Positions 7,163-58,849 of a stretch of DNA of 64,000 bases are shown here, in pieces. Both the position numbers and the translations under genes were made by a program. A model generated the notes under the pieces. The model was not told the origin of the DNA. It ran no database searches and saw nothing but the letters and a program-made list of their open reading frames with translations. This DNA is from Sipunculus nudus (lineage: Eukaryota > Annelida > Sipuncula > Golfingiida > Sipunculidae): the NCBI GenBank assembly GCA_026874595.1, contig CM049318.1, positions 11,265,241-11,329,240 of the forward strand, given 5' to 3'. Positions within the stretch are counted from its first letter, which is position 1. Every line of letters starts with the position of its first letter.

Positions 7163-8760
7163 TGTATCCCCAACCAGTCGGGGGATACTATGTTTTCCTA
7201 CTGGTCCCGCCGCCCCTGCCACATTTAAATCTTGTTGGCGCTATAACTCAAAAAATATTTCATGGATCTCTACCAAACTTGGTATATGTATAGATATGGG
7301 TGAGAGGATGACGCCTATTTAAAATGAGGTCCTTGACCTTGAATAGGTCCAGTTTTGGGGAAAATCACACAAATTCTTAAATATCTCAAGAAATCTCGCA
7401 TGGATTGATCCAAAAATCAAGTTGATGGAAGATCATGGATAGGGTTGTCATGTTCCAGAAACTGGTGGCGCCACCTATAATTCTTTACTTGTTTTCGTGC
7501 CGTTTAATACCCTCAAAATTGCTACTTGACAGTACTGTGAGCATTATAAGTCAAAAACTAATGGACAGATTTCTTTTATATTATGCATGTACATAGATAT
7601 GGGTTATGGGATAATGTCTATTTAAATTGGGATCATGACCTTTCCTATGAGAGTGGCCTTGACCTTGAATATTGCCATATATGGTGAAATTCACACAAAA
7701 TCATTAATATCTCAATAAGGGATGCATGGATTAATCCAAAAATCAACTTGACCGAAGATCTTGGATATTAATGTCATGTACTGGAAACAGGTGGCGCCAC
7801 CTGTTATTCTTTTACTTGTTTTCGTGCCTTTTAATACCCCCATCATTGCCACTTAACAGTACTGTGAGCAAAACTATCTGACAGATTTCTTTCGTATTAT
7901 GCATATACATAGACATGGGTTAAGGGAGGATGTATATATAAATTGGGGTCATGACCTTTCCTATTAGAGTGGCCTTGACCTTGAATATTGCCATATATGG
8001 GGAAAATTACACAAAATCATTAATATCTCAATAAGGGATACATGGATTGGTCCAAAAATCAACTTGATCGAAGATCTTGGATAGTATTGTCATGTACCAG
8101 AAACAGGTGGCGCCACCTAATATTCTTTTACTTGTTTTCATGCCGTTTAATACCCCATCATTGCCATTTGACAGTACTGTGAGCATTAAAAGTCAAAAAC
8201 TAATGGACAGATTTCTTTCATAATATGCATATACATAGATATGGGTTATGGGATGATGTCTATTCAAATTTGGGTCATGACCTTTCCTATGAGAGTGGCC
8301 TTGACCTTGAATATTGACATATATGGTGAAAATCACATAAAATCATTAATATTTCAATAAGGGATGCATTGATTGGTCCAAAAATCAACTTGACCGAAGA
8401 TCTTGAATAGTATTGTCATGTACCGGAAACAGGTGGCACCACCTGTTATTCTTTTACTTGTTTTTGTGCCGTTTAATACCCCATCATTGCCACTTAACAG
8501 TACTGTGAGCATTATAAGTAAAAAACTAATGGACAGATTTCTTTCATATATTATGCATATACATAGACATGGGTTAGGGGATGATGTATATTGAAATTTG
8601 GGTCATGACCTTTTCTGTGAGAGTGACCTTTTCTATGAGTGTGGTCTGATATCAATTGTTGCTGAAGATGGGGGGGGGGGGGGGCCTGTTCTTAAGGGGG
8701 GGGGGGGGATTTATTGTCTGGGGATACTGTGGCACCTGTGGTGCCAAGAAATATCTAGTC
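7163..8760 (+). mobile_element. Element K: Helentron-like non-autonomous repeat
   Basis: The 5' end is a hairpin: GTATCCCC, a short loop, then GGGGATAC, followed by TATGTTTTC. The 3' end repeats GGGGATAC near 8720, next to a small hairpin (GGCACC/GGTGCC) and the tail ATATCTAGTC. The body holds about four tandem units of roughly 320 bp, with palindromes at 7464, 7790, 8106 and a mutated one near 8431. Each unit carries TGACCTT motifs and ends with GGTGGCGCCACCT. A long G run at 8670-8708 precedes the 3' end. Short open frames inside are shadows of the tandem units. Orientation is set by analogy with elements G, H and I, which share the GGATACTATGTTTTC start. Confidence 0.75.
7200..8600 (+). 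repeat. ~320-bp tandem units inside element K
   Basis: Four diverged copies can be followed by eye. Each contains the phrase ending TATGCATATACATAGA, then GGTCATGACCTTTCC, TGACCTTGAATATTG, ATATCTCAATAAGGGAT and GGTGGCGCCACCTG. Palindrome spacing is 326, 316 and about 325 bp. In the three units with an intact palindrome, the distance from ATATCTC to it is 83 bp. Confidence 0.8.
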
Positions 8761-11700
8761 ATTTAGAGGCACTTGTAATTAACAGTCCAGGCAAGTTGCA
8801 AACCCACATACAGCTGTTAGTTATAAATGTTATTATTTGTCAGAAATGTTTAATACAACACTAAAAGGAAGCACCATCAGTCCTTTTTTTGTCATTTTAT
8901 AAATTAATTTTCCTCGTATCTGTGGCTTTTCATTTTTTAATATCCTTAGAGATTTGTGCTATAAAATCATAAGTTCGGGGATGATAACATGAAAACTTTT
9001 AGATAAATCCTTTATTAAATGAAAGACCTGTTAATCTTGAGAAAGAAATTTTTCATTTTCATCTGCCCACAGGTTCATTGTATATGCCATCTTGCCAACC
9101 AACTGTTTGTAAGTCATACAAACAAAACATATCTCTTTCTCTTTGTCTGGTTACATTTCCAAAGAAAAAGAAAGAGAAACTAATGCTGTGTTGTTCCACA
9201 ACAGGCTGCATTAAAGCACCTGTTGTGATCAAAGGTCAAAGGTCAGAGGCCTTAGATTTGTAATCTGTAGTGTGAACCTCAGTTAACTCATTTAAAATTT
9301 TAAGCAAAGCTTAATAGTTTTCACAAAGACTGTGATCTGTATCTGTTTAAAAATCCTTAAAGATTGGTTTCAGCTCAAAATAGGGACCATCATTAATTGA
9401 GGGTAGTGGATTTATCTCATCTCATTGATCTTCAGTCATAGTTTCATATAAATACTTAAGAATATCTGAGAGAATGATAATATTGAATATTTGTCTGGGT
9501 TTTTGATTCCAAGAAGTAATGAATATCTATTCTTTCTGATGTCATACAAACTCTCCCTAACTCCAGCTGTTCCAATTACATTTGTGTGTACTGTGTACAC
9601 TGGAAATTTGTATTATGACCAATGTTATGGATTTTAAACAAAATTTAAAAATTTGGAAAAAAAATAGGTCTGTAGTGAAAAACTCAGGAAGCAGAACTAA
9701 CAGTTTACTGCAATGCCTTACATAAATAATCCCTAGGTGAGCCTTTGTATGAAAGGTTTGTTCACCAATTGGCCACCAGAGGGCTGCATTATGTATAAAC
9801 ATCATAATGTTTTAATAGGGATGACAGAGGAGAAATACTTGTATCAGTGACTGGGATTTATCAGTTTATTATTGGGGGATACTTAAGTGCACACTAGTAT
9901 TTGTTGGAGGTCATGGGGGTTTGATAGGGGCATTAAAATAAAACAAGAAAGTATTCTGAGGACACGATCAAGGTGGGAATTTATTTGAGAGAGTTTGGTG
10001 ACCATTAGACCCATATCTTTCAAGTAGAAGCTGGTAGAAAGCTCTGGGGATGACCATGATCATATATGCAAATTAGAGTAGGGTTAGGACCATTAAAACT
10101 AGTCATATGTGAACTTCATCACCACAAGATTATTGACAAAATATGGAAAATACTTGAAAATGTTTCTGATTAGAGTCAGTGATATGTTTAAGATATCAAT
10201 GCATGCCAGCAGCTTATCAGCAGTTAAACAATAATAGAAGTGACACAGTATCCTGATATGACCTACCTACTGGCTACATATTTCAAGTGCATTTTATTTG
10301 CTGTACAATATCTTAGTTGAATTAATAAATAATTTCACTCAGAACACTCAGATTGCAGTTAAAATGTAGCAGCTACTGGGTCACAGCATAAACAAGAATG
10401 CTTGTGGCAACATGTTGTTACATTGTTACACATATGAAATGTGTATACCTCATGCATTGGTGCTAGATGCCAGTGTGAATGCACAATATGGTCTGAAACT
10501 GAGTTGACCGATCCACTTTGAACAAAACTTTTTAAAACCATTTTTTGTGTGAAAATTGGTAATGATATCATACCTGCTGCTGGCTGAATCTGTCTGTCTC
10601 CAGTACTTAAAATGCACACAATGTTATAGTTCCTTTTGTTGCCTGTTGATCCAGGGAAGCAACTCTACATCATGTAAGACTTGTGTCTTGAATTTCATTT
10701 AGAATTACAATATTTATCTCACAGTCTGCACTGACACCACTTACCGCAGCATCAGATTAATACTTCCTGTGACATAGGCCATGTTACACTTTTATTTCCT
10801 GTTCATAATTGATATCTGGTTGTTTTGTTAATAGATGGCTTTATTTGATAAAGCCCTCAAGCACTGAATTAATTTCATTTTGTGGATCTGTTTCAGCTGA
10901 GATGTAATTACATATGAGCTTTTGTATTAATTTAAATGATAAATTAATTAGATCTGATGGGTTTTCTAATTATGAGGAAGGTTATTAAAATCATTTTCGT
11001 TTTCGAGTGAGATCACATATTATCCTCACACAGGGAAGACATTTCTGTCCACAGAAGACATTTCTGTCCAGGAAATGGTTAATGAAATCCTCATATTGAG
11101 GACACTGTAAGAATAAAGCCTTATCTGAAATTGTTTGATAGTATCAATCAATGAGGTTTATTTTTATTGGAAGGTTTAATTGTCCATGAAACCATTTCTT
11201 CTGAATGTGACACATGCAGATATAAAGTACATATTAGCTCCAGATTTGTTCCCTAACAGTCAAAAATTATTACGATATTCCATTACAAAACTAGGAGGTA
11301 GATAGGAATGAAAATATCTGAAGGGATCAGTTACTGAAATAACTGGTGTGTTGAGATCAGTTAGTTAAATCATTTCTTCTTATGAAACTTGTGGAAGAGC
11401 TCAGTCTGAAATGAACAGTTTGCTAATGATTCGTCTGATGTGATTGGTTAATTAAATACACTTGTAATCAGGAAAATTACAGATAAAAGCTGAACTTCTA
11501 AACTTAAGGGATCAGTTAGTAAAATAATTTTTGGAATAGCAGTCTTAGCTGCGATGTCAACATGCTATGGTCTTTGATACGTTCAGCATCACCAGCACAA
11601 GAGTGATGGAAATGACATAGCTTGGCTGTGATTCTCTGAGATGTGCTCAGTCAAGAGTATGATTTCAATCTGCGGCGCTGTCAATATCAGAGTCAAGACT

Positions 11701-12166
11701 GCTCCACCAAGTTCAGATCAGGACGGGAAGCTAATTTAATAAATAACCAGGAAACCCCTCATGCCTCATGTAATGACGTAACTTCTTTGTGCTTACATGT
11801 TGAACATTGTAGCACTGTTGAACCCTGTGTAAACGTATCTTATTTTTCTTTAAATTTTCTTTTTCACTGGGATGCATCTAATTCTGAGAATTAATTTAGG
11901 TATAAAGAGGGATACAACACAGATTATTTGCGAGACTAAAATTTTACTATTTTCACATTTAAATTGTTGCACAAGGATTTCTTTTTTTGTGATTCTACCA
12001 TGCAGTAACCTACATATAGTGTATCCATTATCACATTGATACTTAATATGTGAGCTAAACTATAACAATATGGCATGGACCAAGAACAAAGATCAAGTAG
12101 AAATGATTTTCCAACTAATTCAGATAAAATGAAGATCTGATATTATTTATAAATAAGTAATGTCTG
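8761..12166. other. Non-coding stretch
   Basis: No gene can be supported. A short frame at 11641 (about 32 codons) and a minus-strand ATG at 10782 running into a GTAAGT-type donor at 10744 were examined. Neither has a partner exon, so neither is annotated. No transposon ends were found between elements K and A. Confidence 0.4.
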
Positions 12167-14611: not shown

Positions 14612-14800
14612 TGATTAACAAGTAACTTTAAAAATCTACAGACATGGTCACGAGGATTACATACATAAAATGTCAATATATAAATGACCATTCACCTGTG
14701 CAGATGAGGTATTGTATTCACAAAGATGTAATTTTCGCAATAATTTCCCTTTTGCGTATATTGCCAATTTGAAACTCGTGTGAATATAAAGCCAACCACA

Positions 14801-14850
<50 letters not shown>

Positions 14851-18975: not shown

Positions 18976-19067
18976 TTAGCTCAGCTGACTGAAAGTCATC
19001 TGAGCTATAGGGATCACCTTTTGTCCGTCGGCCGTCCGGCCGTCCTGGCGTCTGTCCGTTAACAGGG

Positions 19068-22000
19068 CACAAATCGTAACCGCTAGAACTGGAATCTTCT
19101 TACTTGACATCCAGGGAGGTCCATGAAAAATCTCCTTGGAAACCAGAAATTAGGTCTCTGATACCCATATCCTTCGAGCTATGGGGCCCCAAAGTACCCC
19201 CCAGAAAAGTCCAAAATTTCATACAAAAACTTCAATATCTCATTAACCACTTGACTGATGGTCATGATTTTTGGCATACATATTGATCATGAGAGGTTCC
19301 ATCAGTTCCTGAAGAATGGTGGCGCCACCTGTATTTTTCGATTTTTTACGAATTTTTTTCTCTATTTTTGAGACCTTTAAAAATGTGAACATCTGTTAAC
19401 AAGGCACAAATCATAATGACTGGACTTAGGATCTTCATTCTCAACACATTGAGAGACCTATGAAAAGTCTCCATGGAAACCAGAAATTAGGTCTCTGTTA
19501 CCCATATCCTTCGAGCTATGGGGCCCCAAAGTACCCCCCCCCCCGAAAAGTCGAAAATTTCATACAAAAACTTCAATATCTCATTAACTACTTGACTGAT
19601 GGTCATGATTTTTGGCATACATATTGATCATGAGAGGTTCCATCAGTTCCTGAAGACTGGTGGCGCCACCTGTATTTTTCGATTTTTTACGAATTTTTTT
19701 CTCTATTTTTGAGACCTTTAAAAATGTGAACATCTGTTAACAAGGCACAAATCGTAATGACTGGACTTAGAATCTTCATTCTCGACACACTGAGAGACCT
19801 ATGAAAAGTCTCCATGGAAACCAGAAATTAGGTCTCTGTTACCCATATCCTTCCAGCTATGGGGCCCCAAACTACCCCCCAGAAAAGTAAAAAATTTCAT
19901 ACAAAAACTTCAATATCTCATTAACTACTTGACTGATGGTCATGATTTTTGTCATACATATTGATCATGAGATGTTCCATCACTTCCTGCAGACTGGTGG
20001 CGCCACCTGTATCGTTCAATTTTTTACGAATTTTTTTCTCTATTTTTGAGACCTTTCAAAATGTAAACATCAGTTAACAAGGCACAAATCATAAAGACTG
20101 GACCTAGAATCTTCATTCTTGACACACTGAGAGGTCCATGAAAAATATCCTTGGAAACCAGAAATTAGGTCTCTGTTACCCATATTCTTCGAGCTATGGA
20201 GCCCTAAAGTACCCCCCCAGAGTAGTCAAAAATTTCATACAAAAACTTCAATATCTCAATAACTACATCACTGATGGTCATGATTTTTGGCATACATATT
20301 GATTATGAGATGTTCCATCAGTTCCTGCAGACTGGTGGTGCCACCTATATTGTTTGATTTTTTTACGATTTCTTCCTCTATTTTTGAGACCTTTAAGGAT
20401 GCTGTCATCTGTTAGCATGGCACAAATCGTAACGACTGGACCTAGAATCTTCATTCTCAATACACTGAGAGACCTATGAAAAGTCTCCATGGAAACCAGA
20501 AATTAGGTCTCTGTTACCCATATCCTTTGAGCTATGGGGCCCCAAAGTACCCCCCCCCCCAGAGTAGTCAAAAATTTCATACAAAAACTTCAATATCTCA
20601 ATAACTACATCACTGATGGTCATGATTTTTGGCATACATATTGATTATGAGATGTTCCATGAGTTCCTGCAGATTGGTGGCGCCACCTATATTGTTTGAT
20701 TTTTTTACAATTTCTTCCTCTATTTTTGAGACCTTTAAGGATGCTGTCATCTGTTAGCATGGCACAAATCGAAACGACTGGACCTAGAATCTTCATTCTC
20801 AATACACTGAGAGACCTATGAAAAGTCTCCATGGAAACCAGAAATTAGGTCTCTGTTACCCATATCCTTCGAGCTATGGGGCCCCAAAGTACCCCCCAGA
20901 GTAGTCAAAAATTTCATACAAAAACTTCAATATCTCAATAACTACATCACTGATGGTCATGATTTGTGGCATAACTATTGATCAAGAGGTGTTCCATCAG
21001 TTCCTGCAGACTGGTGGCACAACCTGCATTTGTTCGGGTTTTTTTTACGAATGTTTTATCAATTTTTGAGATCTTTAAAGATATGAACATCTGTTAACAG
21101 GGCACAATTCATAAAAACTGGACCTAGAATCTTCATTCTTGACACACAGAGAGACCCATGAAAATTCTCAATGGAAACCTGAAATTAGGTCTCTGTTACC
21201 CATATTCTTTAGGCTGTATGGCTCCAAAATACTCCCCAGAATAATGGAAAATTTGATACAAAAACTTCAATATCTCATTAACTACTTGACTGATGGTCAT
21301 GATTTTTGGCATACATATTGATCATGAGCTGTTCCATCAGTTTCTGCAGAGAGGGTGTGCCACCTCTATTTTTTTCAAATTTTTACGAATTTTTTTTCTC
21401 TTTTTTGAGACCTTTGAATATGTGGTTATCTATCAAGAGGGTACAAATAGCAACAACTGGACCTAGAAACTTCATTCTTGTCATGCAAGGAGGCCCATGA
21501 AGAGTGCCTGTGGAAACTTGAAATTAGGTCTCTGTTACCCATATCCTTCAAGCTATAGGACTCTGAAGTATCCCTCAGAATAATGGACAATTTGATACAA
21601 AAGCTGAAGTATCTGAACAACTAATACGGAGATCATCATGATTCTTTGCATGGATATTGACCATTAAGTGTTTTTAGCTCAGCTGACTGTAAGTCATCTG
21701 AAGTATCCCTCAGAATAATGGACAATTTGATACAAAAGCTCAAGTATCTAAACAACTATTGCAGTGATCACCATGATTCTTTGCATGGATATTGATCATG
21801 GAATGTGTAATCAGTTTCTGCAGTATGGTGGCGCCACCTGTATTTTTTTTATTTTAACAAATTTTTTTTCTCTATTTTTGAGACCTCATAAGATGCGGTC
21901 ATCTGTTAACATGGCACAAATCGTAACAACTGGACCTAGAATCTTTTCTCTTGACATGCCGAGAGGCCCATGAAAAGTCTCCTTAAAAACTTGAAATTAG

Positions 22001-23150
22001 GTCTCTGTCACCCATAACCTCTGAGCTATGGGGCTCCGAAGTACCCCCCAGAATAATGGAAAATTTGATACAAAAGCTCAAGTATCTGAACAATTATTAT
22101 ATTGATCACCATGATTCTTTGCATGGATATTGATCATGAAATGTTTCATCAGTTTCTGCATTCTGGTGGCCCACCTCTATTTTTTCAATTTTTAGCTCAG
22201 CTGACTGAAAGTCATCTGAGCTGTAGGGATCACCTTTTGTCCGTTGTCTGTCCGGCCATCCAGGCGTCTGTCTGTTAACAGGGCACAAATTGTAACCGCT
22301 AGACCGGGAATCTTCTTACTTGAAATCCTGGGAGGTCTATGGAAATTCTCCTTGTAAACCTGAAATTAGGTCACTGTGACCTATATTCTTCGAGCTATAG
22401 GGTTCTGAAGTACCCCCAACAATAATGCAAAATTTAATACAAAAGCTCAAGTATCTGAACAACTAATGCATTAATCACCATGATTCTTTGCATGGATATT
22501 GATCATGGAGTGTTTCATCAATTTCTGGAGATTGGTGGTGCCACCTATATTTTTTTTATTTTTTACGATTTATTTTTCTCTACTTTTGTGATCTTTAAAC
22601 ATTTGGTCATCTGTAAACAGGGCACAAATCATAATGACTGGACCTAGAATCTTCTCTCCTCACCTCCAGGGAAGCCCATAAAAAGGTCTACATGGAAACC
22701 CGAAATAAGGTCCCTGTTACCCATATTCTGTAAGCTATGGGGCTCTGAAGTACCCCCCAGAATAAAGATTTGGTCATATATTAACAGGGCACAAATCATA
22801 ATGACTGGACCTAGAATCGTCTGTCCTCACCTCCAGGGAAGCCCATAAAAGGTCTACATGGAAACCCGAAATAAGGTCCCTGTTACCCATATCCTTCATG
22901 CTCTGGGGCTCCGAAGTACTCCCCAGAATAAAGATTTGGTCATCTGTTAACAGAGCACAAATTATAATGACTTGACCTAGAATCTCCTTTCTTGATATGC
23001 TGGGAGGCCCCTAAAAAGTCTCCTGGTGCACCTGAAATAACATCTCTGTTACCCATATCCTTCATCCTATGCGGCTTTGAAATACCCCCCAGAAAAAACA
23101 TTTGGATTTGTTAACAGGGCACAAATCATAATAACTGGACCTAGAATTTT
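19068..23150 (+). repeat. ~340-bp tandem array inside element D
   Basis: Successive GGCACAAATC starts lie near 19068, 19405, 19746, 20083, 20421, 20763, 21103 and 21442, giving periods of 337-342 bp. The array then becomes irregular: a 5'-end fragment is inserted at 21676, a second 5' end lies at 22191, and 164-170-bp partial units run from 22789 to 23120. Each full unit has the phrases CTGGACCTAGAATCTTCATT, GAAATTAGGTCTCTGTTACC, ATATCCTTCGAGCTATGGGG and the palindrome GGTGGCGCCACC or a one-base variant. Open frames starting with METFH at 20490 and 20832 on the minus strand are shadows of this array. Confidence 0.9.
22191..22300 (+). mobile_element. Second 5' end of the D family inside element D
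   Basis: TTTAGCTCAGCTGACTGAAAGTCATCTGAGCT recurs after a T-rich stretch (ATTTTTTCAATTT), again with GTCC-like repeats and GTTAACAGGGCACAAAT. Only one D-type 3' end follows (28224). Either a second element is nested here and shares that end, or the 5' module was duplicated inside the array. Confidence 0.7.
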
Positions 23151-25108: not shown

Positions 25109-25274
25109 TTCAGAAATATATGTTATATTGGAAATGTATACAAATTAAACTTAAAATAAAAAAATGAGGATCTAATACAAACATGTGTTCATTATTTTCG
25201 AGCCTCAGCAGAATTGGAGATCAGGCTTTGTTTGCCCTGAATGTTTATGCAAAAGTGTTGTTAATCCAATCTCT

Positions 25275-25275
<1 letters not shown>

Positions 25276-25311: not shown

Positions 25312-25313
<2 letters not shown>

Positions 25314-29059: not shown

Positions 29060-29949
29060 TGTATCCGCCAAAACAGTTTTGTGGATACTATGTTTTCAGT
29101 TGGACCCCTGCTTAGGTTTCCGGAGAACTCCTCGGTAACCACTGGGTGGAATTTTTTTTAAATTTGGAATTATGATCATGTCACATGTGAACTGCTGCGC
29201 CCTCATTTTTGGCCAACCTCTGACCTTTCCTCTCTGCCTAGTGTCCATTAGTGTGTCTGTTTCCACACATAAACCCACCTATCTCGGGAACCGTTAGACC
29301 GATCAGGCTAAAAATTTTGCACAAATGTAGCCCTTGGAAAGCTTTATAACATACACTAAAAATGGTGGCACCACCTGCAACCATTTTTGCACAGCGTCCA
29401 TCTGTTCATCTGCCCTGGGATAAATTTACTCATGTCTCGACAGTGGTTTGACTTATCCACCTGAAACTTTGCATGTTTATACATCCTGGACAGCTTTCTT
29501 GATTTTGTGGTGGGTGGCACCACTTTCATTCAAGTTTACACTGCAGACATCCCAGCTCATATCTCGGGAACCGTATGACTGATTGGGCCAAAATTTTGCA
29601 TAGGTATAGGTCTCATATAGCATTTAATCATACACAAAATTGGTGGCGCCACCTGCAACTATTTTGCACAGCGTCCATCTGTTCATCTGCCTTGGGATAA
29701 AATCACTCATATCTCGACGGTGGTTTGACTTATCCACCTGAAACTTTGCATTTTATACATCCTGGACAGCTTTCTTGATTTTGTGGTAGGTGGCAAAACC
29801 TACATACACATTTTGGCTGCAGACATCCATCCTTGTATGCAACACACCTCACTCTAGTTCCCCTTGCCACTCAATGCATGCCTCACTTCACCCATCCCAC
29901 TCTGATTTCAGTGGATAGTAGTTGCTTGTCACCTACCTGTATTCTAGTT
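29060..29949 (+). mobile_element. Element G: GTATCC-family Helentron-like repeat
   Basis: The 5' hairpin is GTATCCGCCAAAAC paired with GTTTTGTGGATAC, followed by TATGTTTTCAG. The 3' end is GTGGATAGTAGTTGCTTGTC then ACCTACCTGTATTCTAGTT, a decayed form of the ends of H and I. The body includes two ATATCTCGGGAACCG units and palindromes at 29642 (exact) and near 29366 (one mismatch). At about 890 bp it is shorter than H and I, with fewer units. Confidence 0.8.
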
Positions 29950-42055: not shown

Positions 42056-45000
42056 TTAGCTCAGCTGACTGTAAGTCATCTGAGCTATAGCGATCACTCT
42101 TTGTCCGTCGTTCGTCTGTCCGTCCATCCATCTGTCTGTTAACCTGGCACAAATCATAACCGCTGGACCTAGAATCTTGTAACTTTACATTCTGAGAGGT
42201 CCATCAAAAATCTCCTTGGAAACCAGAAATTAGGTCTCTGTTACCCCATATCCTTTGAGCTATGGGGCCTCAAAGTACCCCCCCCCCCCAGAATATTCAA
42301 AAATTTCATACAAAAACTTCAATATCTCATTAATGACATCACTGATGGTCCTGATTTTTTGTGTACATATGGATCATGAGAAGTTTCATCACTTCCTGCA
42401 GACTGGTGGTGCCACCTGTATTTTTCGATTTTTTACGAATTTTTTCTCTATTTTTGTGACCTTTAAAAATGTGAACATCTGTTAACAGGGCACAAATCAT
42501 AAAGACTGGACCTAGAATCTTAATTCTTGACACACTGAGAGACCTATGAAAAGTCTCCATGGAAACCAGAAATTAGGTCTCTGTTATCCATATCTTTCAA
42601 GCTATGGGGCCCAAAGTACCCCCGACCCCCAGAATAGTAAATAATTTCATACAAAAACTTCAATATCTAATTAACTACATCACTGATGTTCATTATTTTT
42701 TGCATACATATTGATCATGAGAAGTTTCATCACTTCCTGCAGACTGGTGGCACGACCTATATTTTTCGTTTTTTAGCTCAGCTGACTTTCAGTCATGCTG
42801 GGCTATAGCGATGGGTCTTTGTCCGTCGTCCTTCCGTCTGTCCGTCTGTCCGTCCGGCCGTCCGTCTGTTAGCAGGGCACAAATCGTAACAGTAGGAGCT
42901 AGGGCCATGAAACCTATGCAGTCTTAGAGGTCTAAAAAGATCTCCTTGCAAACCTGAAATTAGGTCACTGCCACCTATATTCTCGAAGTTATGGGGTGTG
43001 TTTGCACCCCCCAGAAATAATTCTTTTAGCCAAAATTTTCATCCCAAACCTTCCATCTTTCACATACAGCTCACCTACCAACAGGGGAAGAACCATGATT
43101 ATTTTGAGGTCACAAGGTCAAAGGTCAAGGTCACAGAACCAACTTCTTTGAAAAGCCTATGGATGCATTTTAAGCCAAACCTTTCATCCCAATTCTTCCA
43201 TCTTTCACATATAGCTCACCTACTAAGTGGGAGAAGAATCCTATAGATGTTGAGGTCACAAGGTCAAAGGTCAAGGTCACAGGATCCACTTCTTTGAAAA
43301 GGTTGTGGACACATTTCAAGCTAGACCTTTCATTCCAAACCTTTCAGCACTGATATCACTTCTCTGCCAACAGGGGAAAAGACCTGTTGATTTGAGGTCA
43401 AAGGTCAAGTTCACAGCACCCTCACTTGCATGGAGTCATTTTCAGGCAAACTTTTCAATCTATACTTTCCATCTATCATATATGGCTTACCTACCAATAG
43501 GGGAAGAAGCCTATTGATATTGAGTTCAAAAGGTCAAAGGTCAATGTCACAATATTGTTCTAAATGCTTGTGAACATATTTGAAGTGAAACTGTTCAACC
43601 CAAACCTTCAGTCTTTCACATATGCCACATCTATGCATCACTCAATGTGATTCAAACTTCATATTTATGGGTCTTTTTGCATGAAGAAATAACTAATTGA
43701 TTTTGAGGTCAGCTGGTCAGGAGGTTAAAGGTTGCAGTTCTTAATTGTTCACTCATTGGTTGCCAAGTTATTACACCCGGCCAGATGTAATTGGTTAGTA
43801 GTTACCCATCATTTAGAAAGAATCCAGTTGATATGTGGGCAAAAGGCCAAGGTCATAGGTCAGGTCAACTTATTTTGTAGACCATCTCTATTTTTCTTGT
43901 TTAGCTACTGATTTATTAGATGATGGGAACATTTTGCAGTTTATTTTATGGAATCATAGCAATAAACGTAGTTTCTTAGATATCTGAATATTTTTATATA
44001 AATCACCACATATAAAAGCAAGTGTTTGTTCTCATAATATGTGGATGTGTACTTGATTTAGGATGGCTTTATTTTATTACAAGACTCTTAGTCATGCTTT
44101 CTGCATTTCTTTTCTTTCAGGTTTTGCAGTTTACCAACCCTGCTGACCCCATTGAAAAGCAGAGTGATAATAAAAAATATTGGACCTACACTTTTACATT
44201 TGCATATCTATAAATCTGATATGAGTGCCTGAACATGCCTTTTGAATTGTTTTGGACATTCATTACTGTAACATCATTTGGAGAATTTGCCCCAAGTTTG
44301 ATCTCTTATTGGAGGTTGTGTGATATCAAATGTCAGACTTGTCAGAAATCCATTTTGTCTGCCAGTTAGCCATCTTAGAAATCCTTTTTTCAGTAATTTT
44401 CCTTCAATTTTAGGTCCGATTTAGAGAATGGTTGTTATCTGATTTCAGACCTGTCAGAAGTCCAAAATGGCCACCAGGCAACCATCTTTAAATTCCTTTT
44501 GATCATATTATCTCAAGAACTGTTAAAGTGAAGGCAGTCGGATGTATATTAATGTAATCTTGCAAAGGATTGGGTCAAATATTTCTTAATAAATATTATC
44601 ATCATATATGAAAGTGCAGTACAGTTGGCTTGTATTGAATAAAAATTCATACAGAAGCACCTGTTTCTCAATAATTCTTGCATGGATTTCCTTGATTTTT
44701 TTGCTATATATTTTGATCTTATATTTGCCCTTTGTGGTGTTCCTTTTGAGACTGACAGGTATCAAGTAAGCTATGGGAATAGTTCTGGATACCTTAACAA
44801 TCATACATTTTCCTCAGACCATCAATTCACTGTGTTTTAACCAGACATAGGTGGTATATATTTCTGTTGTCGTAGAAAATTTCAACAAATTGGCAAATTG
44901 GTTCTTCAAAATTTGACTGGAAGTTGTGAATCTCAGCCCATGATGTCGCAGGTCATGCTTGGCAGCTGAGCGTCATGACCCATGGGTCACTTGTTTTACG

Positions 45001-46116
45001 AATTGTTTTCGCTATTTTTGAGACCTTTAAAAATGTGAACATCTGTCAACAGGGCACAAATTGTAAAGACTGGACCTAGAATCTTCATTCCTGACACAGT
45101 GAGAGACCTATGAAAAGTCTCCATGGAAACCTGAAATAAGGTCTCTGTTACTCATATCCTTTGAGCTGTGGGGCTCCCAATTACCCCCCAGAATAATGAA
45201 AAATTTGATAAAAACAAACTGCAACATCTCAATAACTACAAAACTGATGGTCATAATTGTTTGTATCAATATTGATCATGGAGTGTTTCATCAGTTTCTG
45301 CAGACTGGTGGCACCACCTATATTTGATTGGGTTTTTTTACGAATTTTTTTCTCTATTTTTGAGACCTTTAAAGATATGAACATCTGTTAACGTTAACTT
45401 GAAATTAGGTCTCTGTTACCCATATCCTTCAAGCTATAGGACTCCGAAGTATCCTTCAGAATAATGGACAATTTGATACAAAAGCTGAAGTTTCTGAACA
45501 ACTAATGCAGAGATCACCATGATTCTTTGCATGGATATTGATTAATGAATGTTTCATCAGTTTCTGCAGACTGGTGGCACCACCTGTATTTGTTCAGATT
45601 TTTTTACAAATTTTTTTCTCTATTTTTGAGACCTTTAAGGATGCTGTCATCTGTTAACGTGGCACAGATTGTAACAACAGGACTTAGAATCTTCATTCAT
45701 GTCATGCAAGGAGGCCCATGAAAAGTGTCTGTGGAAACCTGAAATTAGGTCTCTGTTACCCATATCCTTCAAGCTATAGGACTCTGAAGTATCCCTCAGA
45801 ATAATGGAAAATTTGATACAAAAGCTGAAGTATCTGAACAACTAATGCAGAGTTCACCATGATTCTTTGCATGGATATTGACCATTAAGTGTTTTTATTA
45901 GTTTCTGCAGACTGGTGGAGCCACCTGTATTTTTTTTAAAGTTTATGCATTTTTTCTCTATTTTTGAGATATATAAATACAGTCACAATCTTGGCCTGTT
46001 GGTTAATCTGTTTGATGCTTCAAATGAATGGGTATATACTACCATTCAGATGATAAAATTTCTTTTGGCAAATCTCTTTCCAGTCAGCTGAGCGTCATGA
46101 CCCATGGGTCACTTGT
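42056..46116 (+). mobile_element. Element F: D-family repeat interrupted by A2, in intron 1
   Basis: The start is TTAGCTCAGCTGACTGTAAG with the partner arm AGTCATCTGAGCT and GTCCGTC repeats. The end is GTCAGCTGAGCGTCATGACC, then CATGGGTCACTTGTATT. Both ends and the unit phrases (CTGGACCTAGAATCTT, GAAATTAGGTCTCTG) match element D, as does the CATTCAGATGATAAAATT stretch before the 3' end. Element A2 interrupts it in the T-run of ATTTTTCGTTTTTTACGAAT. Without A2 it is about 1.8 kb with roughly five partial ~340-bp units. It lies in the same orientation as the host gene. Confidence 0.85.
42772..44996 (+). mobile_element. Element A2: copy of element A, nested in F
   Basis: This closely matches element A (12167-14611) from the TTTAGCTCAGCTGACTTTC start to the CACTTGTTT end. 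It lacks about 200 bp present in A at roughly 13312-13514 and carries small substitutions throughout. The F unit it interrupts is continuous on either side (TTTTTCGTTT before, TTACGAATTG after). That fixes both borders and shows insertion within a run of T without a longer target duplication. It encodes no transposase. Confidence 0.92.
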
Positions 46117-47130
46117 ATTAACAATAACATATCTTTAATTTTAAATTGAAGCATGAATGCTTTATTTTATGCTTGCTTAAACTCATTGTGATATTCACTG
46201 ATTTTACTCTTTTATTTGATGTATAAAGTAATCTGCTGATGGATTAAGAATCACAGAACATGGTCACAAAGTACAATCCCTGAAATGAGACGTGTCCCCA
46301 TTACCCAGTGTATATTGGTCTGTCTGTACAGCTTCTATCCCATCAATTTCTTTACTTACAGAACAGAAATCCATCACATACTCATCCAAATATGATCCAG
46401 GCCTTTTTTACTCTGGCAGGTAGTGTGAATAGGATGTATATTTAAATCAGCAAGACAGTTTTGCTGATCATTTAGATGCTGAAGTAAATTGACAGGACTA
46501 TCCCATTGGGTGTGAAAGCCATCAGCCATGTGCCATTTGACTGATTTGATGAGACAGGTAATATTTACTCCCTGTGTGTGTCTGACATCATGTTTAACAG
46601 GAAGTACCTGTATATGTAATCACTGACAGAGACGGACTGACATTGAATAAGATAAAATGTGGGAGATGCTTGTTTTCACAAAGTTAAAGGATAACAGTAT
46701 TTCCTTATTGCACATAAGAAAGATGATTTTTTTGTTAAATTTCAAAAGTAAAACTTATGCAAGTTTAATAAATTAATAAGCAAACAGATGCAAGTTTAGC
46801 CATATTAAAAGTGACAGGGTTGTAAGTTTTACACTTTCTTCAGTAGAAATGATTGATTCAAGTTTTATGATTTCATAGGGAAAGAGAAGATGTTTTGTAA
46901 TTTCATAAGTAAAATGGATTAGTTTTATAATTTCATAAGTTAAAGTGATTAGAGTTTTATAATCTCAGAATTAAAAATGATGCAAATTTTATAATGTCAT
47001 AAGTAAAACTATGGTTATTTTTGTAATTTCATAGATAAAAAGGTTTTAGTTTAAATTATGTGATATTAAAAATACAATGAATGGAAAAAGGAAAAAAAAA
47101 TAAGGATCCATCTAATACTGAAAAATTATT
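46117..47130 (+). other. Intron 1, AT-rich, with loose TTTTATAATTTCATAAGT repeats
   Basis: No gene is seen. Between about 46735 and 47050 the phrase TTTTATAATTTCATAAGTAA recurs loosely at 40-60 bp intervals, suggesting a decayed minisatellite. Confidence 0.5.
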
Positions 47131-47440
47131 CCAGGAACATATTCTGGTGTTGGACATTGACTGGAGTTCTTTTGGACAGTCTTTGGAACATGTTCTTAAT
47201 ATGATGACGTTTATCTTTGGAACATGTTCTTTTATTAGACATTTATCTTTGGAACATGTTCTTGTGTTGGACATTTATCTTTGGAATGTTTTTTTATTGG
47301 ACATTTATCTTTGGAACATGTTCTTGTTTTGGACATTTATCTTTGGAGCATGTTCTTGTGTTTGACATTTATCTTTGGAACATGTTCTTTTGTTGGACAT
47401 TTATCTTTAGAACATGTTCTTGTGCTGAACATTTACCTGA
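47130..47440. repeat. 32-bp minisatellite with GAACATGTTC palindromes, intron 1
   Basis: The unit is TGGACATTTATCTTTGGAAC followed by ATGTTCTTGTGT. Unit starts (GGAACATG or variants) lie near 47185, 47219, 47251, 47283, 47313, 47345, 47377 and 47409, mostly 32 bp apart. Because 32 is not a multiple of 3, three overlapping frames of 68-108 codons run across it with the same words in different frames, so these are not genes. GAACATGTTC is a perfect palindrome present in most units. Confidence 0.95.
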
Positions 47441-49479: not shown

Positions 49480-49603
49480 ACCTCCTCCAAGGAGGTTATG
49501 TTTTTACCTGTGTCTGAAATTTTTGTTAATTAGTTTCTTACAGATCTGGGAGGTTTGTTACGTCTTGGCAGAGGTATGCACTCTGCTTAGTGCTCTCTTT
49601 TCT
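49480..49603 (+). mobile_element. Element L: short decayed hairpin-ended repeat
   Basis: The 5' hairpin ACCTCC-TCCAA-GGAGGT (49480-49496) is followed by TATGTTTTTACC. The 3' part has GGCAGAGGTATGCACTCTGC and TTAGTGC, where GCACT and AGTGC (49578-49593) form a 3' hairpin. GAGGT before it echoes the 5' arm in inverse. This is the plan of elements G-K in miniature, with the tail decayed. I recall similar CCTCC/GGAGG repeats from other marine animal genomes, but cannot check that here. Confidence 0.5.
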
Positions 49604-51754: not shown

Positions 51755-53440
51755 ATGAAAATAAACACAAGCAGCAACTACAGTAATGAAAATACACATG
51801 AGCAGCAATTACAGTAATGAAAATACACGTGAGCAGCAATTACACTAACAAAAATACCCATGAGCAGCAATTACAGTAACAAAAATACACACAGGCAGCA
51901 ATTACAGTAATGAAAATACACACAAGCAGCATTTACAGTAACAAAAATACAGACAAGCAGCAAATAAAGTAACAAAACTGCACACATCATCACAAGCAGC
52001 AATTACAGTATTGATAATACACATAAGCAGCAATTACAGTAATGAAAATACACACAAGCAGCATTTAGAGTAATGAAAATGCACATGAGCAGCAGTTACA
52101 GTAACAAAAATACACACGGGCAGTTATTACAGTAGTGAAAATACACACAGGTAGCAGTTACATTAATTGTATCAGCCAAAACAGAGTTTTGCGGATACTA
52201 TGTTTTCAGCCCACCGCCGCCGCGTAGGTGTCCGGAGAACTCCTCCGTAACCGCTGGGCGGAATTTTACGAACCCTGGGATTATGTTCGGGTCACATGTG
52301 AACTGCTGCGCCCCGATTTTGTTTTGACCTCTGACCTTTCCTCTGCGCTCTGCGTCCGTTTGTGCGTCTGTTTCCACACATAAACCCACATATCTCGGGA
52401 ACCGTTTAACCGATCAGGAAAATTTTTTGCACAAATGTAGCCCTTGGAGAGCTTGATAACATACACAAAAAATGGTGGCGCCACCTGCAACCATGTTTGC
52501 TCAGTGTCCATCTGTTCATCTGCCTTGGGTTAAAATCACTCATATCTCTGCAGTGGTTTGACTAATTCACCTGAAATTTGGCATGCATATACATCCTGGA
52601 TAGCTTTTCTGATTTTATGACAGGTGGCGCCACCTACATTCACGTTTACACTGCAGACATCCGAGCTCATATCTCGGGAACCTTTTGACCGATTGGGCCA
52701 AAATTTTGCATGTGTATAGATCTCACATAGCTCTTTATCATACGCAAAACTGGTGGTGCCACCTGCAGCCATTTTTGCACAGCTCCCGTCTATTTGTCTG
52801 CCATGAGATAAATCACTCATATCTCGGCAGTGGTTTGACATATCTGCCTAAAATTTTGCAGGTTTATACATCCCCGACAGCCCTCTTGACTTTATGACAG
52901 GTGGCGCCACCTACATTCTAGTTTATGCAGCAGATATCCAAGCTCATATCTTGGGAACCGTTTGTCCGATTGGGCCAAAATTTTGCATGTGTATAGTTCT
53001 AACATAACTCTTTATCATACGCAAAACTGGTGGCGCCATCTGCAACCATTTTTGCACAGGGTCCATCTGTTTTTCTGCCAAGGGCAAAAATCACTCATAT
53101 ACATGTAGTGGTTTGACTTATCTGCCTTAAATTTTGCATATGTATACAACTTGGACGGCTTTCTGGATTTTGTGGTAGGTGGCGCAACCTACATACACAA
53201 TTTGGCTGCAGACATCCATGCTAATATGCAACACTTCACTCTATTTCCCCTTGCCACTCAATCCATGCCTCACTTCACCCGTACCACTCTGATTTAGACG
53301 GATACACGTAGTCGCTTGTCAACTACCCGTATTCTAGTTAAAATACACACAAGTGGCAATTACAGTAATGAAAATACACAGGAGCAGCAATTACAGTAAT
53401 GAATATACACACAAGCAGCAATCACAGTAATTATAGTAAT
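51755..53440. repeat. 31-bp minisatellite split by element H, intron 1
   Basis: The unit is roughly AGCAGCAATTACAGTAATGA followed by AAATACACACA. About 13 copies run from 51755 to 52167, and about three more from 53340 to 53440. Element H sits between the two blocks, interrupting a unit after CATTAAT and before AAAATACAC. The array therefore predates the insertion. Confidence 0.92.
52168..53339 (+). mobile_element. Element H: GTATCC-family repeat inserted in a minisatellite
   Basis: The 5' hairpin is GTATCAGCCAAAACAGAGTT then TTGCGGATAC (one base off I at the start). The 3' end is GACGGATACACGTAGTCGCT then TGTCAACTACCCGTATTCTAGTT. The body has palindromes at 52474, 52623, 52753 (one mismatch), 52902, 53031 (one mismatch) and 53179 (one mismatch), alternately about 149 and 130 bp apart. 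Two sub-units therefore make a ~279-bp higher unit. The minisatellite on both sides fixes the borders. Confidence 0.9.
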
Positions 53441-54940: not shown

Positions 54941-55592
54941 GTTAACTCTTTAGCCCTGTGAGCAGGATATCTCTAAGAAGATTGACCGTAGGAATTTTAT
55001 TTCTTCAGTGAAGATGTATATTAACGAAATCTTGGTCAAGTTCGAAGATGGGTGACCTTGATCTATTTTTCTACGTTTTAGAAGTGATTATGGAAAATAA
55101 CTTAGAAGCTTATTTCTCAGGAACTATCAGGTGGATTTTCACAAACCTTACTATGATCATTGGGACTGATGGTCTGTACCTGCTGCACAAGTAAGGTGGC
55201 GCTGCCTACAATTTCTGATTTTTTAATGAATTTTTCTCAGATTTTTCAAGTTTGGCCTTGTGAGCAGGATATCTCCAAAGGTATTCAACACAGGATCTTC
55301 ATTTCTTCAGTTCTGATGCATATTTACATAATCTTGGTCATGTTCAAAGATGGGTGACCTTGACCTACTTTTCAAGATCACATAGCTTAGAATAGAGTAA
55401 AACTTGGGATCTTATTTCTCAGGAAGCATTTGGTGGATTATTATGAAACATGGTACATACCTCTCCAGTACTGAGACATGTACAGATATAAATCCATGTG
55501 GGAACACATATTTCGTACTTGTTACTGTTACCACCGATAAACACTGTTCTTTTGGCTGAGGGCTTTTGTCAGCTTCTGCTGTTATTCTAGTT
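54941..55592 (+). mobile_element. Element J1: 5'-truncated J-family repeat
   Basis: It opens with GTTAACTC...TGTGAGCAGG, which corresponds to the inside of J2, so the hairpin and GTCC array are missing. The 3' end matches J2 exactly in plan: GGCTGAGGGCT, TTTGTCAGCTTCTGCTG, TTATTCTAGTT. The units contain GGGTGACCTTGACCTA and TTATTTCTCAGGAACTATC. J2 begins at the very next base. Confidence 0.8.
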
Positions 55593-56557
55593 TTTAGCCC
55601 TCAGCCCTTAGGCTGAAGGGCTATTGTCGTCACCCAAGCTGTCCGTCCGTCCGTCCGTCCGTCCGTCCGGCGTCCGTTAACTTTTACCTTGTGAGCGGGA
55701 TATCTTGAAAAGGATTCACCGTCAGAATTTTATTTCCTCGGTAAAGATGTATATCGACAAAATCTCGGTCAAGTTCGAAGATGGGTGACCTTGACCTATT
55801 TTTCTACATTTTAGAGCTGATTATAGAAAAACACTTAGATGCTTATTACTCAGGAACCATTTGATTGATTTTCACAAAACTTACTATGATTATTAGGACT
55901 GATAATCTGTACCTGCTTCACAAGTTTGGTGGCGCCACCTACAATATCTGATTTTTAATGAATTTTTATCTGATTTTTCAACTTTGGGCTTGTGAGCGGG
56001 ATATCTCTAAAAGGATTCACTGTAGGAATTTTATTTTTTCGGTGAAAATGTATATTGACAAAATCTCGGTCAAGTTCGAAGATGGGTGACCTTGACCTAT
56101 TTTTCTACGTTTTAGAGCTGATTATAGAAAAAACATTTAGAAGCTTATTTCTCAGGAACCATTGGCTGGATTTTCACAATACTTACTATGATCATAGGGA
56201 GTGAAGGTCTGTAACTGCTGCACAAGTTTGGGGGCGCCACCTGCAATTTCTGATTTATAATAAATTTTTCTTGGATTTTTCAATTTTGGGCTTGTGAGCG
56301 AAAATCTCTAAAAGGATTCACAATAGGAATTTTATTTCTTTGGTGAAGATGTAGAACTTAGAAGCTTATTTTTCAGGAAGCATTTGGTGGATTGTTATGA
56401 ATCATGGTACATACCTCTCCATTTTAAATTTATAACTGAGACATGTACAGATATACATCCATGTGAGAACAGATATTTAGTACTTGTTACTGTTACCACC
56501 TCTAAACACTGTTCTTTTGGCTGAGGGCTTTTGTCAGCTTCTGCTGATATTCTAGTT
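55593..56557 (+). mobile_element. Element J2: complete AGCCCT-family Helentron-like repeat
   Basis: The 5' hairpin is TAGCCCTCAGCC-CTTA-GGCTGAAGGGCTA, followed by a (GTCC)n array at 55641-55669 and GTTAAC. The 3' end is GGCTGAGGGCT, the exact inverse of the 5' AGCCCTCAGCC. It is followed by a small hairpin (TCAGC/GCTGA) and the tail ATTCTAGTT. The body holds about two and a half ~300-bp units with GTGACCTTGACCTATTTTTC. There is an exact palindrome at 55928 and a one-base variant at 56230. It ends 265 bp before exon 2. Confidence 0.88.
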
Positions 56558-56821
56558 TTTTCTGTTTACAAAACATCTTCACTTGCTTGAGGAACTGGCT
56601 TGAACACAGAATTGTGATGATGAAATAGGAAACTTGTGTCTTGGAAATATTTACTTTAAGGGAAGATGGCCTCAGAGAATTATGATTTATACTTGTGGTT
56701 AGGCTCATTCTTGTAGCCTCACTTAACTCCCTTGGTAGCAAACAGACCAAGGAACCATAACAGAAGCTGGACTATTTGTTGTCAAGTCAATTGAACTTGA
56801 ACTTTGTCTTCATCTTTTCAG
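56558..56821 (+). other. End of intron 1 with acceptor site
   Basis: The last bases before exon 2 read ACTTTGTCTTCATCTTTTCAG, a good polypyrimidine tract and AG acceptor. Nothing else is recognisable in this short stretch. Confidence 0.7.
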
Positions 56822-57064
56822 ATGACCTTGACCTTGAGCAGCTGATACAAGACATGCACGATGGAGTATCAATTGATCGTTTACCTTTGATAATGCGCGG
56901 TGACCATGACAGCTTACTAATCGGCAAGTCCAATCTCAGTAGTTCTTCTGCGTCTTTGTCTTCAGAGGAAAATCGTTTGAATGGCAGTACAAATAGTATC
57001 TCTGAAGCTGATACATGCCGAGATAAAGGCATGCAGGGGATGGCAATACAGTCTCAATCTGAAG
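56822..57064 (+). CDS. Coding exon 2 of the unrecognised gene (81 codons, phase 1-1)
   Basis: The exon lies between a CTTTTCAG acceptor and GAAG|GTAAGT, and is 243 bases, an exact multiple of three, with both splice sites in phase 1. The peptide begins DLDLEQLIQDMHDGVSIDR, an acidic stretch with helix-like spacing, then LPLIMRGDHDSLLIG. A serine-rich region (SSSSASLSSEENRL) and NGSTNSISEADTCRDKG follow, ending near QSQSEG. The second half looks disordered and phosphorylatable. No domain family is recognised and there is no membrane segment. The acceptor phase fits exon 1 at 40052. Being symmetric, the exon could be alternatively spliced without a frameshift. The opening GATGACCTTGACCTTGAG resembles the TGACCTTGACCT string in nearby J elements, probably by chance. 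Confidence 0.82.
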
Positions 57065-57395
57065 GTAAGTCAAGTCAGTCAAATCTTATGTTTGTCAAAT
57101 TATGTATGTATGATTCAAAATGACATCACCAGGATGCAGTACCATACAATTAAGTTATGCAGAAAAAGCTGGATCATTAAATTGTACATGGAGTACTCCC
57201 AGTTTAAATTCTAGTAAGATTGTGTTATTAAATGCTGGACTACATAATCCCAATCACAATATATTGTTGCAGTGGAGATCACACAGTGTCATCATAAAAA
57301 AATTTGGAATTATCAAAATTTAACATGTATGAGTGATGCGGGAGCATGGATAACAAGTATATATCACAGGTAGGAATGCTGCATGTTGCTGTTAT
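57065..57395 (+). other. Start of intron 2
   Basis: GTAAGT at 57065 opens the intron. The frames that read on from exon 2 (to 57123) and others nearby are intronic read-through. Confidence 0.6.
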
Positions 57396-58849
57396 TGTAT
57401 CCGCCAAAACAGAGTTTTGCGGATACTATGTTTTCAGCCCACCGCCGCCGCGTAGGTGTCCGGAGAACTCCGTAACCGCTGGGCGGAATTTTACGAAACC
57501 CTGGGATTATGTTCGGGTCACATGTGAACTGCTGCGCCTCGATTTTGTTTTGACCTCTGACCTTTCCTCTGCGCTCTGCGTCCGTTTGTGCATCTGTTTC
57601 CACACATAAACCCACATATCTCGGGAACCGTATGACCGATCAGGAAAATTTTTTTGCACAAATGTAGCCCTTGGAGAGCTTGATAACATACATAAAAAAT
57701 GGTGGCGCCACCTGCAACCATGTTTGCACAGTGTCCATCTGTTCGTCTGCCTTGGGTAAAAATCACTCATATCTCTGCAGTGACTTGACTTCACCTGAAT
57801 TTCGGCATGCATATACATCCTGGATAGCTTTTCTGATTTTATGACAGGTGGCGCCACCTACATTCACGTTTACGCTGCAGACATCCAAGCTCATATCTCG
57901 GGAACCGTTTGACCGATCAGGAAAATTTTTTTGCACAAATGTAGCCCTTGGAGAGCTTTATAACATACTCAAAAAATGGTGGCGCCACCTGCAACCATGT
58001 TTGCACAGTGTCCATCTGTTCGTCTGCCTTGGGTTAAAATCACTCATATCTCTGCAGTGACTTGACTAATTCACCTGAAATTCGGATATCTTGGATGGCT
58101 TTTCTGATTTTATGACAGGTGGCGCCACCTACATTCACGTTTACGCTGCAGACATCCAAGCTCATATCTCGGGAACCGTTTGACCGATTGGGCCAAAATT
58201 TTGCATGTGTATAGATCTCACATAGCTCTTTATCATAGGCAAAACTGGTGGCGCCACCTGCAGCCATTTTTGCACAGCTCCTGTCTGTTTGTCTGCCATG
58301 GGATAAAATCACTCATATCTCAGCAGTGGTTTGACATATCTGCCTAAAATTTTGCAGGTTTATACATCCCCGACAGCTCTCTTGATTTTATGACAGGTGG
58401 CGCCACCTGCATTCTAGTTTATGCAGCAGACATCCAAGCTCATATCTTGGGAACCGTTTGACCGATTGGGCCAAAGTTTTGCATGTGTATAGTTCTCACA
58501 TAGCTCTTTATCATACGCAAAACTGGTGGCGTCACCTGCAACCATTTTTGCTCAGCGTCCATCTGTTTGTCCGCCACGGGCTAAAATCACTCATATACAT
58601 GTAGTGGTTTGACTTATCTGCCTTAAATTTTGCATATGTATACAACTTGGACGGCTTTCTGGATTTTGTGGTAGGTGGCACAACCTACATACACAATTTG
58701 GCTGCAGACATCCATGCTAATATGCAACACTTCACTCTATTTCCCCTTGCCACTCAATCCATGCCTCACTTCACCCGTTCCACTCTGATTTAGGCGGATA
58801 CACGTAGTCGACAAAACGTAGTCGCTTGTCGACTACCCGTATTCTAGTT
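57396..58849 (+). mobile_element. Element I: most intact GTATCC-family Helentron-like repeat
   Basis: The 5' hairpin pairs GTATCCGCCAAAAC with GTTTTGCGGATAC around AGA, with one bulged base. The 3' subterminal GGCGGATAC is the exact inverse of GTATCCGCC. Next comes a perfect 11-bp hairpin, GTAGTCGACAA/TTGTCGACTAC, and the tail CCCGTATTCTAGTT. Palindromes lie at 57702, 57848, 57979, 58118, 58247 and 58397, with variants at 58525 and 58674. It is very similar to H but has one extra unit pair and a complete 3' hairpin. Minus-strand frames such as 57507-57857 and 58040-58312 are unit shadows. Confidence 0.92.

Follow-up and report, generated by a model that had tools for sequence, protein, structure and literature searches.

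Non-autonomous Helentrons (HINEs) are rolling-circle transposons, and the parts of the literature examined give no settled answer as to why satellite-like repeats occupy the centre of these elements and of the DINEs. The present work concerns repeats of this kind in the sipunculan worm Sipunculus nudus, noticed in a stretch of 64,000 nucleotides that is referred to here as the window (GenBank assembly GCA_026874595.1, contig CM049318.1, positions 11,265,241 to 11,329,240 of the forward strand; positions below count from its first letter). The repeat families designated K, D, G, H, I and J look, from their sequences, like HINE-like elements. It is rather probable that a single ancient module, whose invariant 12-bp palindrome, GGTGGCGCCACC, would be the binding site of a dimeric protein, gave rise to their central tandem repeats.

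The likeness to bivalve elements is one of anatomy only. In the oyster Crassostrea gigas, the Cg_HINE elements combine, as do those described here, a left subterminal inverted repeat (subTIR) with a complementary inverted repeat (IR), a GTCC-type microsatellite in several elements, satellite-like central repeats in fixed orientation, and a right subTIR with a palindrome; their insertion shows a TT preference and no target duplication (PMC7492417, available part). The same part of that paper reports subTIRs of 11–12 bp, related flanks with different repeats, as in S. nudus, and dissimilar monomers that have two conserved segments in common (CL4 with CL1/2/10/13), and the boxed segments could include the present motif. 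In contrast, the repeats of groups 2 and 3 are termed unrelated, and that part describes no invariant internal palindrome held at a fixed distance across unrelated ends.

The bivalve satellites BIV160 and Cg170 (HindIII) and the pearl elements CvA and DTC84 likewise have monomers with two conserved motifs, which also occur inside HINE-type elements (PMC5139131, excerpts). DTC84 carries a conserved palindrome near the repeat junction (PMC5139131, excerpts), which resembles GGTGGCGCCACC as far as this description goes. Membership of the BIV160 satellite was considered and rejected, since the forward primer bivF had no genome match with up to two mismatches, although a single primer tests a divergent family only weakly. 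A further difference is the spacing of the palindromes in S. nudus, for the most part 128–151 or 300–342 bp.

The DINE-1/HINE elements of arthropods share with the present ones subTIRs, a 3´ stem-loop, central repeats and a lack of coding capacity, and with some of them a microsatellite, but no comparable internal palindrome module is described in the portion of PMC4067079 consulted. Mite HINE subTIRs measure 12–15 bp and lie 38–60 bp from the 3´ end (same portion), as against 9–11 bp and 28–47 bp here, J2 and K being nearer the end. In oyster satellitomes, the satellites mostly form the repeated centre of Helitron-type elements that have conserved boxes at their ends; in the excerpts of PMC8268682 and PMC11136912, the boxes named occupy the ends of the elements or the stretch from the microsatellite to the repeats, and not a palindrome within each repeat. 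Finally, a full-text literature search for GGTGGCGCCACC returned one unrelated paper only; it covered text without figures or supplements, so an earlier sighting is possible.

Abundance of the Palindrome and Its Distance to the Anchor

The palindrome GGTGGCGCCACC, perfect over its 12 bp, occurs 19 times exactly in the window, where the original prediction gave about 19, and 13 times with one mismatch, while shuffled sequences are expected to hold 0.03 (sd 0.17). All 32 sites fall within repeat blocks. The genome as a whole (1.43 Gb in 153 contigs) contains 111,757 exact copies, as against 14 of the same pattern read backwards. The combination of ATATCTC, 76 intervening nucleotides and the palindrome (distance 83) was found 22,422 times, and that with 61 to 91 intervening nucleotides (distances 68–98) 64,814 times; both reversed-pattern controls gave 0.

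The first 100 listed exact palindromes of contig C1 were fetched with their flanks. This sample is non-random, comprising one 0.8-Mb stretch (0.12–0.94 Mb) in which nearly all copies have the same orientation. ATATCTC, with at most one mismatch, stood 78–85 bp before the palindrome in 79 of the 100, mainly at 81 (26), 83 (27) and 85 (16). Exact ATATCTC was distributed over the distances 80 (1), 81 (21), 82 (3), 83 (18), 84 (3) and 85 (15), with only three further cases at other distances up to 130 bp. The distance from anchor to palindrome therefore varies between families within narrow limits, with 81, 83 and 85 as the main values, and is not one number.

A profile of the body (the sequence between anchor and palindrome), excluding the palindrome and trained on window copies alone, recovered 91 of the 100 sample copies, with matches ending beside the palindrome; it gave 183 matches in the real sequence and 0 in the reversed one. 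A wider profile of 19 sequences, 10 of them taken from this same sample, recovered 98. Most of the 21 palindromes without an ATATCTC anchor still carried the body in the profile search. Nearly every exact palindrome in the sample therefore belongs to the module.

Re-measurement left most of the distances first read by eye unchanged, namely 83 bp in K (palindromes at 7464, 7790 and 8106), G (29642), I (58247) and, with ATTACTC as the anchor, J2 (55928), 84 in H (52474) and 81 in a second H sub-unit (52623). The value of 84 claimed for D is corrected to 83, its palindrome starting at 19318 and not at 19319. The proposal of a fixed module of 81–84 bp held as regards its tight spacing; the range was slightly narrow, the window also holding distances of 72, 78, 80 and 85. 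Neither a broad distribution of distances nor a single family with mutated ends emerged.

One Module under Different Ends

The module comprises about 95 bp: a phrase of the form ATATCTC..AACC..TTGACCGATT..TTTTGCAT, some 45 bp of freely varying sequence, and then GGTGGCGCCACC. Pairwise alignment of seven typed family bodies gave identities of 0.52–0.80, and 20 of the 21 pairs exceeded shuffled sequences (z 3.1–14.8), the weakest being Hodd–J (z 1.4). Across 12 aligned families, mean body identity was 0.51 (0.31–0.77) and the length from anchor to palindrome was 81–85 bp in all 12. The palindrome was invariant in 12 of its 12 columns and the body in 7 of 86 (P 6e-11 if columns are exchangeable); 22 of the 86 body columns were common to at least 80% of the families. 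The weak common phrase noted earlier between the anchors is therefore a loose consensus only.

The 5´ ends of the HI, K, J and D types are 0.31–0.54 alike, except for HI and K (0.63). Three groups of 5´ ends can be distinguished (HI/K, J and D/M/N), the D, M and N types having common ends (0.62–0.79 between types). Homologous bodies combined with mostly dissimilar 5´ ends support the earlier suggestion that different ends enclose an ancient body common to all. Furthermore, D, M and N share ends, but M and N lack the palindrome, which indicates that ends and centres have been shuffled into a mosaic.

Palindromes are spaced at 129/149 bp in H and I, about 302 in J, 326 in K and 335–342 in D, and overall mostly at 128–151 or 300–342 bp. 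By arithmetic from these spacings, the linker from palindrome to next anchor varies from about 34 to about 240 bp. The idea of selection on a module of defined length is thus upheld for the palindrome, and for length only indirectly, through the contrast between 81–85 bp in 12 families and this variable linker. Copies of the body phrase without a palindrome were found twice in J (E 0.0001 and 0.008) and once or twice in N (E 0.003 and 0.05); in the half-units of K, one such copy is significant (Table 1) and two are weak (7551–7598 and 8193–8240; E 0.15 and 0.71). The J units, and less surely the K units, look like dimers with the palindrome in one half, while H and I have it in both halves.

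Constancy between Families and Decay after Insertion

The palindrome was also assessed in copies selected by the body alone, using a profile blind to it on the window and on 13 pieces of 10 kb, placed blind at round coordinates on contigs C2–C12, C14 and C15. This yielded 79 matches, 70 of which reach the body end. Within 12 bp of the expected slot, the best 12-mer of these 70 had 0 mismatches to the palindrome in 31, 1 in 22, 2 in 8, 3 in 7, 4 in 1 and 5 in 1, while a control search 60 bp further on gave at least 5 mismatches in 69 of the 70. Among seven family consensuses selected in this way, the palindrome was invariant at 12 of 12 columns and the body at 11 of 86 (P 2e-9).

Within families, a different pattern was observed (69 of the 70 matches entered, one unclustered copy being left out). 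CpG sites had changed in 24 of 135 cases in the palindrome (0.178) and in 27 of 150 in the body (0.180; Fisher p 1.0). Non-CpG sites had changed in 32 of 680 and 437 of 5542 (0.079), respectively (Fisher p 0.003). Of 26 changes at the central CG of the palindrome, 23 were the C>T or G>A transitions expected from CpG decay. Since the CpGs of palindrome and body decay alike, inserted copies decay ordinarily, and the constancy between families comes from lineages that kept transposing. Selection thus acted on these lineages and not on inserted copies, and the palindrome probably serves the transposon in some way.

HINE Anatomy of the Carriers

SubTIRs of 10 bp in I, 11 bp in J2 and 9 bp in K place inverted repeats at both ends of these elements, the 3´ copy ending 47, 28 and about 30 bp from the 3´ end, respectively. 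A 5´ IR complementary to the subTIR is present in all three. No exact subTIR run of at least 7 was found in H, nor in G as delimited. Compared with shuffled sequences, the 5´ hairpin folds as a single strand with z −6.8 in I, −5.9 in J2, −5.0 in D and −1.7 in K, and the 3´ hairpin with z −3.5 in I, −2.7 in J2 and −2.7 in K. GTCC arrays occur in J2 and in the two M and two N elements, D having only a GTCC-containing stretch; no left-part microsatellite was seen by eye in H, I or K.

An array of 31-bp tandem repeats extends to either side of element H, the flanks reading ...ACATTAAT and AAAATACACAC; no target duplication is visible at this one natural site, read by eye. As for the classical criteria of miniature inverted-repeat transposable elements, the inverted repeats of I, J2 and K are subterminal, and a target-site duplication was not seen at the single site inspected. 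A structured RNA gene was also considered and rejected, the window giving 0 Rfam matches at gathering score and 0 tRNA genes by ARAGORN (bacterial code). J1 and J2 abut without a spacer (55583–55606), as expected of rolling-circle concatemers or of adjacent T-rich insertions.

Autonomous Helitron-Type Loci

The genome holds at least 143 Helitron_like_N matches (150 of 195 candidates scored), at least 7 of them in open frames of more than 2,200 aa. Four Helitron-type loci were fetched (two of 10 kb and two of 9 kb); element ends were not found in them, and their frames measure 2235, 2250 and 2426 aa, and 2304 aa in a frame cut by the fetched edge. The domain check covered the 2,250-aa frame, which has the OTU, Helitron_like_N, PIF1 and Exo_endo_phos domains that make up the Helentron set. 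For the oyster HINEs, the autonomous partner is stated to be unknown (PMC7492417, available part).

Directly after this 2,250-aa frame, at positions 7337–9316 of its locus (L055, C8:80136001-80146000), there are tandem repeats of about 330 bp. A AAATCTCA.TAAC string resembling the module phrase can be read in them by eye, but they have no significant match in the profile search.

Proposed Role of the Palindrome and Alternative Explanations

In the reading that we favour, an ancient HINE module with an invariant palindrome, GGTGGCGCCACC would be a two-fold symmetric site bound by a dimeric protein, either a component of the transposition machinery or a host factor. With one or two sites per unit, each element would offer several. 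The palindrome would be kept since elements that lose it leave fewer descendants, and not through any need of the host for inserted copies. Its 12-bp symmetry without conserved outer arms, the poor hairpin energy of the I and D copies and the one or two copies per unit fit a dimeric DNA-binding protein better than a hairpin.

Several points weigh against this reading. Neither the M nor the N type shows the palindrome, even when two mismatches are allowed; it is therefore dispensable in some HINE-like elements, and phrase copies lacking it exist in K and J. The four Helitron-type loci show, in the 9–10 kb fetched from each, neither the palindrome within two mismatches nor the body at E 0.05, and compared with the 13 HINE-like elements of the window they share a single 32-bp match, inside a frame, with no relation seen. 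Moreover, 5 of the 12 families were chosen for holding an exact palindrome, which inflates that invariance count, whereas the count over seven families avoids such a choice; the profile behind that count, however, learned from bodies that carry the palindrome and may therefore miss families in which the palindrome was lost long ago.

Iteron arrays at rolling-circle and theta replication origins offer a parallel: their sites stand in tandem close to hairpins, have a constant internal arrangement and are bound by an initiator, and the tandem units multiply the sites that it binds. The palindrome and its phased upstream phrase could, by analogy, form an iteron-like array serving as a putative trans-recognition site common to HINE families with unrelated ends, an extension that we regard as unlikely. 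A difference from iterons is that the four Helitron-type loci here lack the palindrome. If the iteron-like reading were true, one protein, transposon-encoded or host, would select which non-autonomous rolling-circle elements amplify, and families would compete through the number and quality of their palindrome sites.

Among the other explanations, it is possible, though doubtful, that recombination or capture transfers the central repeats between HINEs with unrelated ends, with the palindrome marking the exchange point. The mosaic structure favours such exchange, D, M and N having the same ends with different centres and HI, K, J and D the same module with different ends, as do oyster elements with related flanks and unrelated repeats (PMC7492417, available part). 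However, the H and I arrays begin within about 10 bp of the ATATCTC phrase and not at the palindrome, and exchange alone leaves unexplained why just the palindrome stays fixed. It can hold together with the shared ancient module and its putative dimer-binding site.

A structural role, in which a hairpin or cruciform at the palindrome pauses rolling-circle copying and so generates the tandem repeats, appears quite unlikely. A stem-loop near the 3´ end is carried by HINEs (PMC4067079, portion consulted) and a conserved palindrome lies near the DTC84 repeat junction (PMC5139131, excerpts), and one K copy, with a 20-bp palindrome, folds well (z −3.6). The I and D copies, in contrast, fold no better than shuffled sequences (z −0.4 and −0.9), symmetry ends at 12–14 bp in 110 of 114 anchored exact copies, with T as the next base in 109 of the 114, and the array starts of H and I again fall near the phrase. 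The hairpin was accordingly rejected as the main role, given the short symmetry and the shuffle-like folding of two of the three copies, and the earlier suggestion of a replication structure finds no support as regards hairpin formation.

Common descent alone would make all families branches of one HINE lineage, with too little time for the palindrome to change. The homologous bodies, the related 5´ ends of HI and K and the low within-family divergence at non-CpG body sites agree with this, but bodies of about 51% identity have changed at about half of their sites, yet all 12 palindrome positions, including the readily decaying CpG, are unchanged, which makes this explanation distinctly improbable. 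That the host makes use of inserted copies, for instance as insulators or for regulation, and that selection at the genome level maintains them, is highly improbable: the number of exact copies speaks for it, as does a possible resemblance of the half-site to the CTCF core and of CACCTG to an E-box, but palindrome CpGs decay as body CpGs do and the exact palindrome persists in just 31 of the 70 body-selected copies.

Features of the Window and Their Orientation

The elements of the window and their parts are collected in Table 1. An open frame at 56761–57120 on the + strand holds a likely exon at about 56824–57065 (AG..GT borders read by eye), suggesting a + strand gene.

Table 1. HINE-like elements of the window, with their modules, palindromes and end features.
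Feature	Position	Strand	Remarks
Element K, HINE-like	7163..8757	+	About 4 units of 326 bp, one palindrome each
K 5´ features	subTIR 7164-7172; 5´ IR 7181-7188	+	subTIR GTATCCCCA
K 3´ features	subTIR 8719-8727; hairpin 8730-8746	+	3´ end near ATATCTAGTC, read by eye
K module 1	7381..7475	+	ATATCTC to palindrome, 83 bp + 12
K module 2	7707..7801	+	
K module 3	8023..8117	+	
K palindrome-less body-phrase copy, first half-unit	7247..7295	+	Significant profile match, E 0.0006
M-type elements	12163-12957 and 42773-43552		D-type ends, 146-bp repeats with AGGTCA-like direct repeats, no palindrome
D-type element(s)	18976..22191	+	5´ end AGCTCAGCTGACT; 337-bp units; second D-type 5´ end at 21674
Palindromes/variants of 18976..22191	19318, 19659, 19996, 20334, 20676, 21013, 21353, 21827	+	
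Second D-type element	22192..23150	+	Palindrome 22534 (TG variant); right end approximate
Element G, HI-like	29060..29949	+	5´ end motif at 29060; 3´ hairpin 29918-29936; 3´ end TATTCTAGTT
G palindromes/variants	29364, 29513, 29642, 29789	+	
D-type element	42056..42770	+	Palindrome variants 42405, 42746
D-type repeats	44991..46120	+	Palindrome variants 45307, 45573, 45914; D-type 3´ end from 46085
Element H, inside 31-bp tandem array	52168..53339	+	3´ hairpin 53308-53326
H palindromes/one-mismatch variants	52474, 52623, 52752, 52900, 53029, 53178	+	Spacing 149/129/148/129/149
Element J1	54948..55592	+	Left end approximate; palindrome variant 55195; 3´ end TATTCTAGTT
Element J2, head to tail with J1	55593..56557	+	Palindromes 55928, 56230 (one mismatch)
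J2 end features	5´ subTIR 55596-55606; (GTCC)n 55641-55668; 3´ subTIR 56519-56529; 3´ hairpin 56534-56547	+	5´ subTIR AGCCCTCAGCC
Element I	57396..58849	+	3´ end TATTCTAGTT at 58849
I end features	5´ subTIR 57396-57405; 3´ subTIR 58793-58802; 3´ hairpin 58818-58836	+	5´ subTIR TGTATCCGCC; 5´ hairpin
I palindromes/variants	57701, 57847, 57978, 58118, 58247, 58396, 58525, 58674	+	

All 29 anchored palindromes of the window lie on the + strand (8 are unanchored), and GTCCGTCC occurs 17 times on + and 0 times on −. On contig C1, neighbouring elements of different families had the same orientation in 35 of 42 pairs within 20 kb, in 33 of 54 at 20–50 kb, in 47 of 79 at 50–100 kb and in about half beyond. 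Below 50 kb, this amounts to 68 of 96 pairs, with 47.6 expected (sd 4.9). D–HI pairs supply much of the concordance: beyond 5 Mb and within 20 kb, they agreed in 21 of 23 cases, other pairs in 11 of 16. This local same-strand bias could reflect tandem rolling-circle insertion, local duplication, or a strand preference linked to transcription or replication. As a non-Helentron control for orientation, repeats common to random pieces were sought; nearly all were HINE-like.

Long single-orientation runs were seen at 0.12–4.66 Mb of C1 (47 collapsed elements in 9 runs, p 1e-5) and were unseen further along this contig. Strand domains on the megabase scale were rejected in general: the D list, which spans 55 Mb, and the H list, which spans 103 Mb, each gave 43 runs, with 44.9 and 45.8 expected, and five family lists together show local concordance only, so that only the local effect is retained. 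At about 3.70–3.75 Mb of C1, a K-like module repeats every 10.4 kb or so, six times, which is probably a large tandem duplication.

Significance for HINE Biology

The module described here is a well-conserved cis-module newly described within a known kind of element, the HINE. A phased palindromic site that stays identical through about 50% divergence of the body, and in families whose ends are unrelated, is evidence for a selected cis signal in the central repeats, as opposed to passive filler. The 12-bp palindrome provides a bait for seeking the protein that would bind it, possibly the missing partner of these transposons or a host accomplice, and its 111,757 exact copies in one genome form a large natural set of candidate binding sites.

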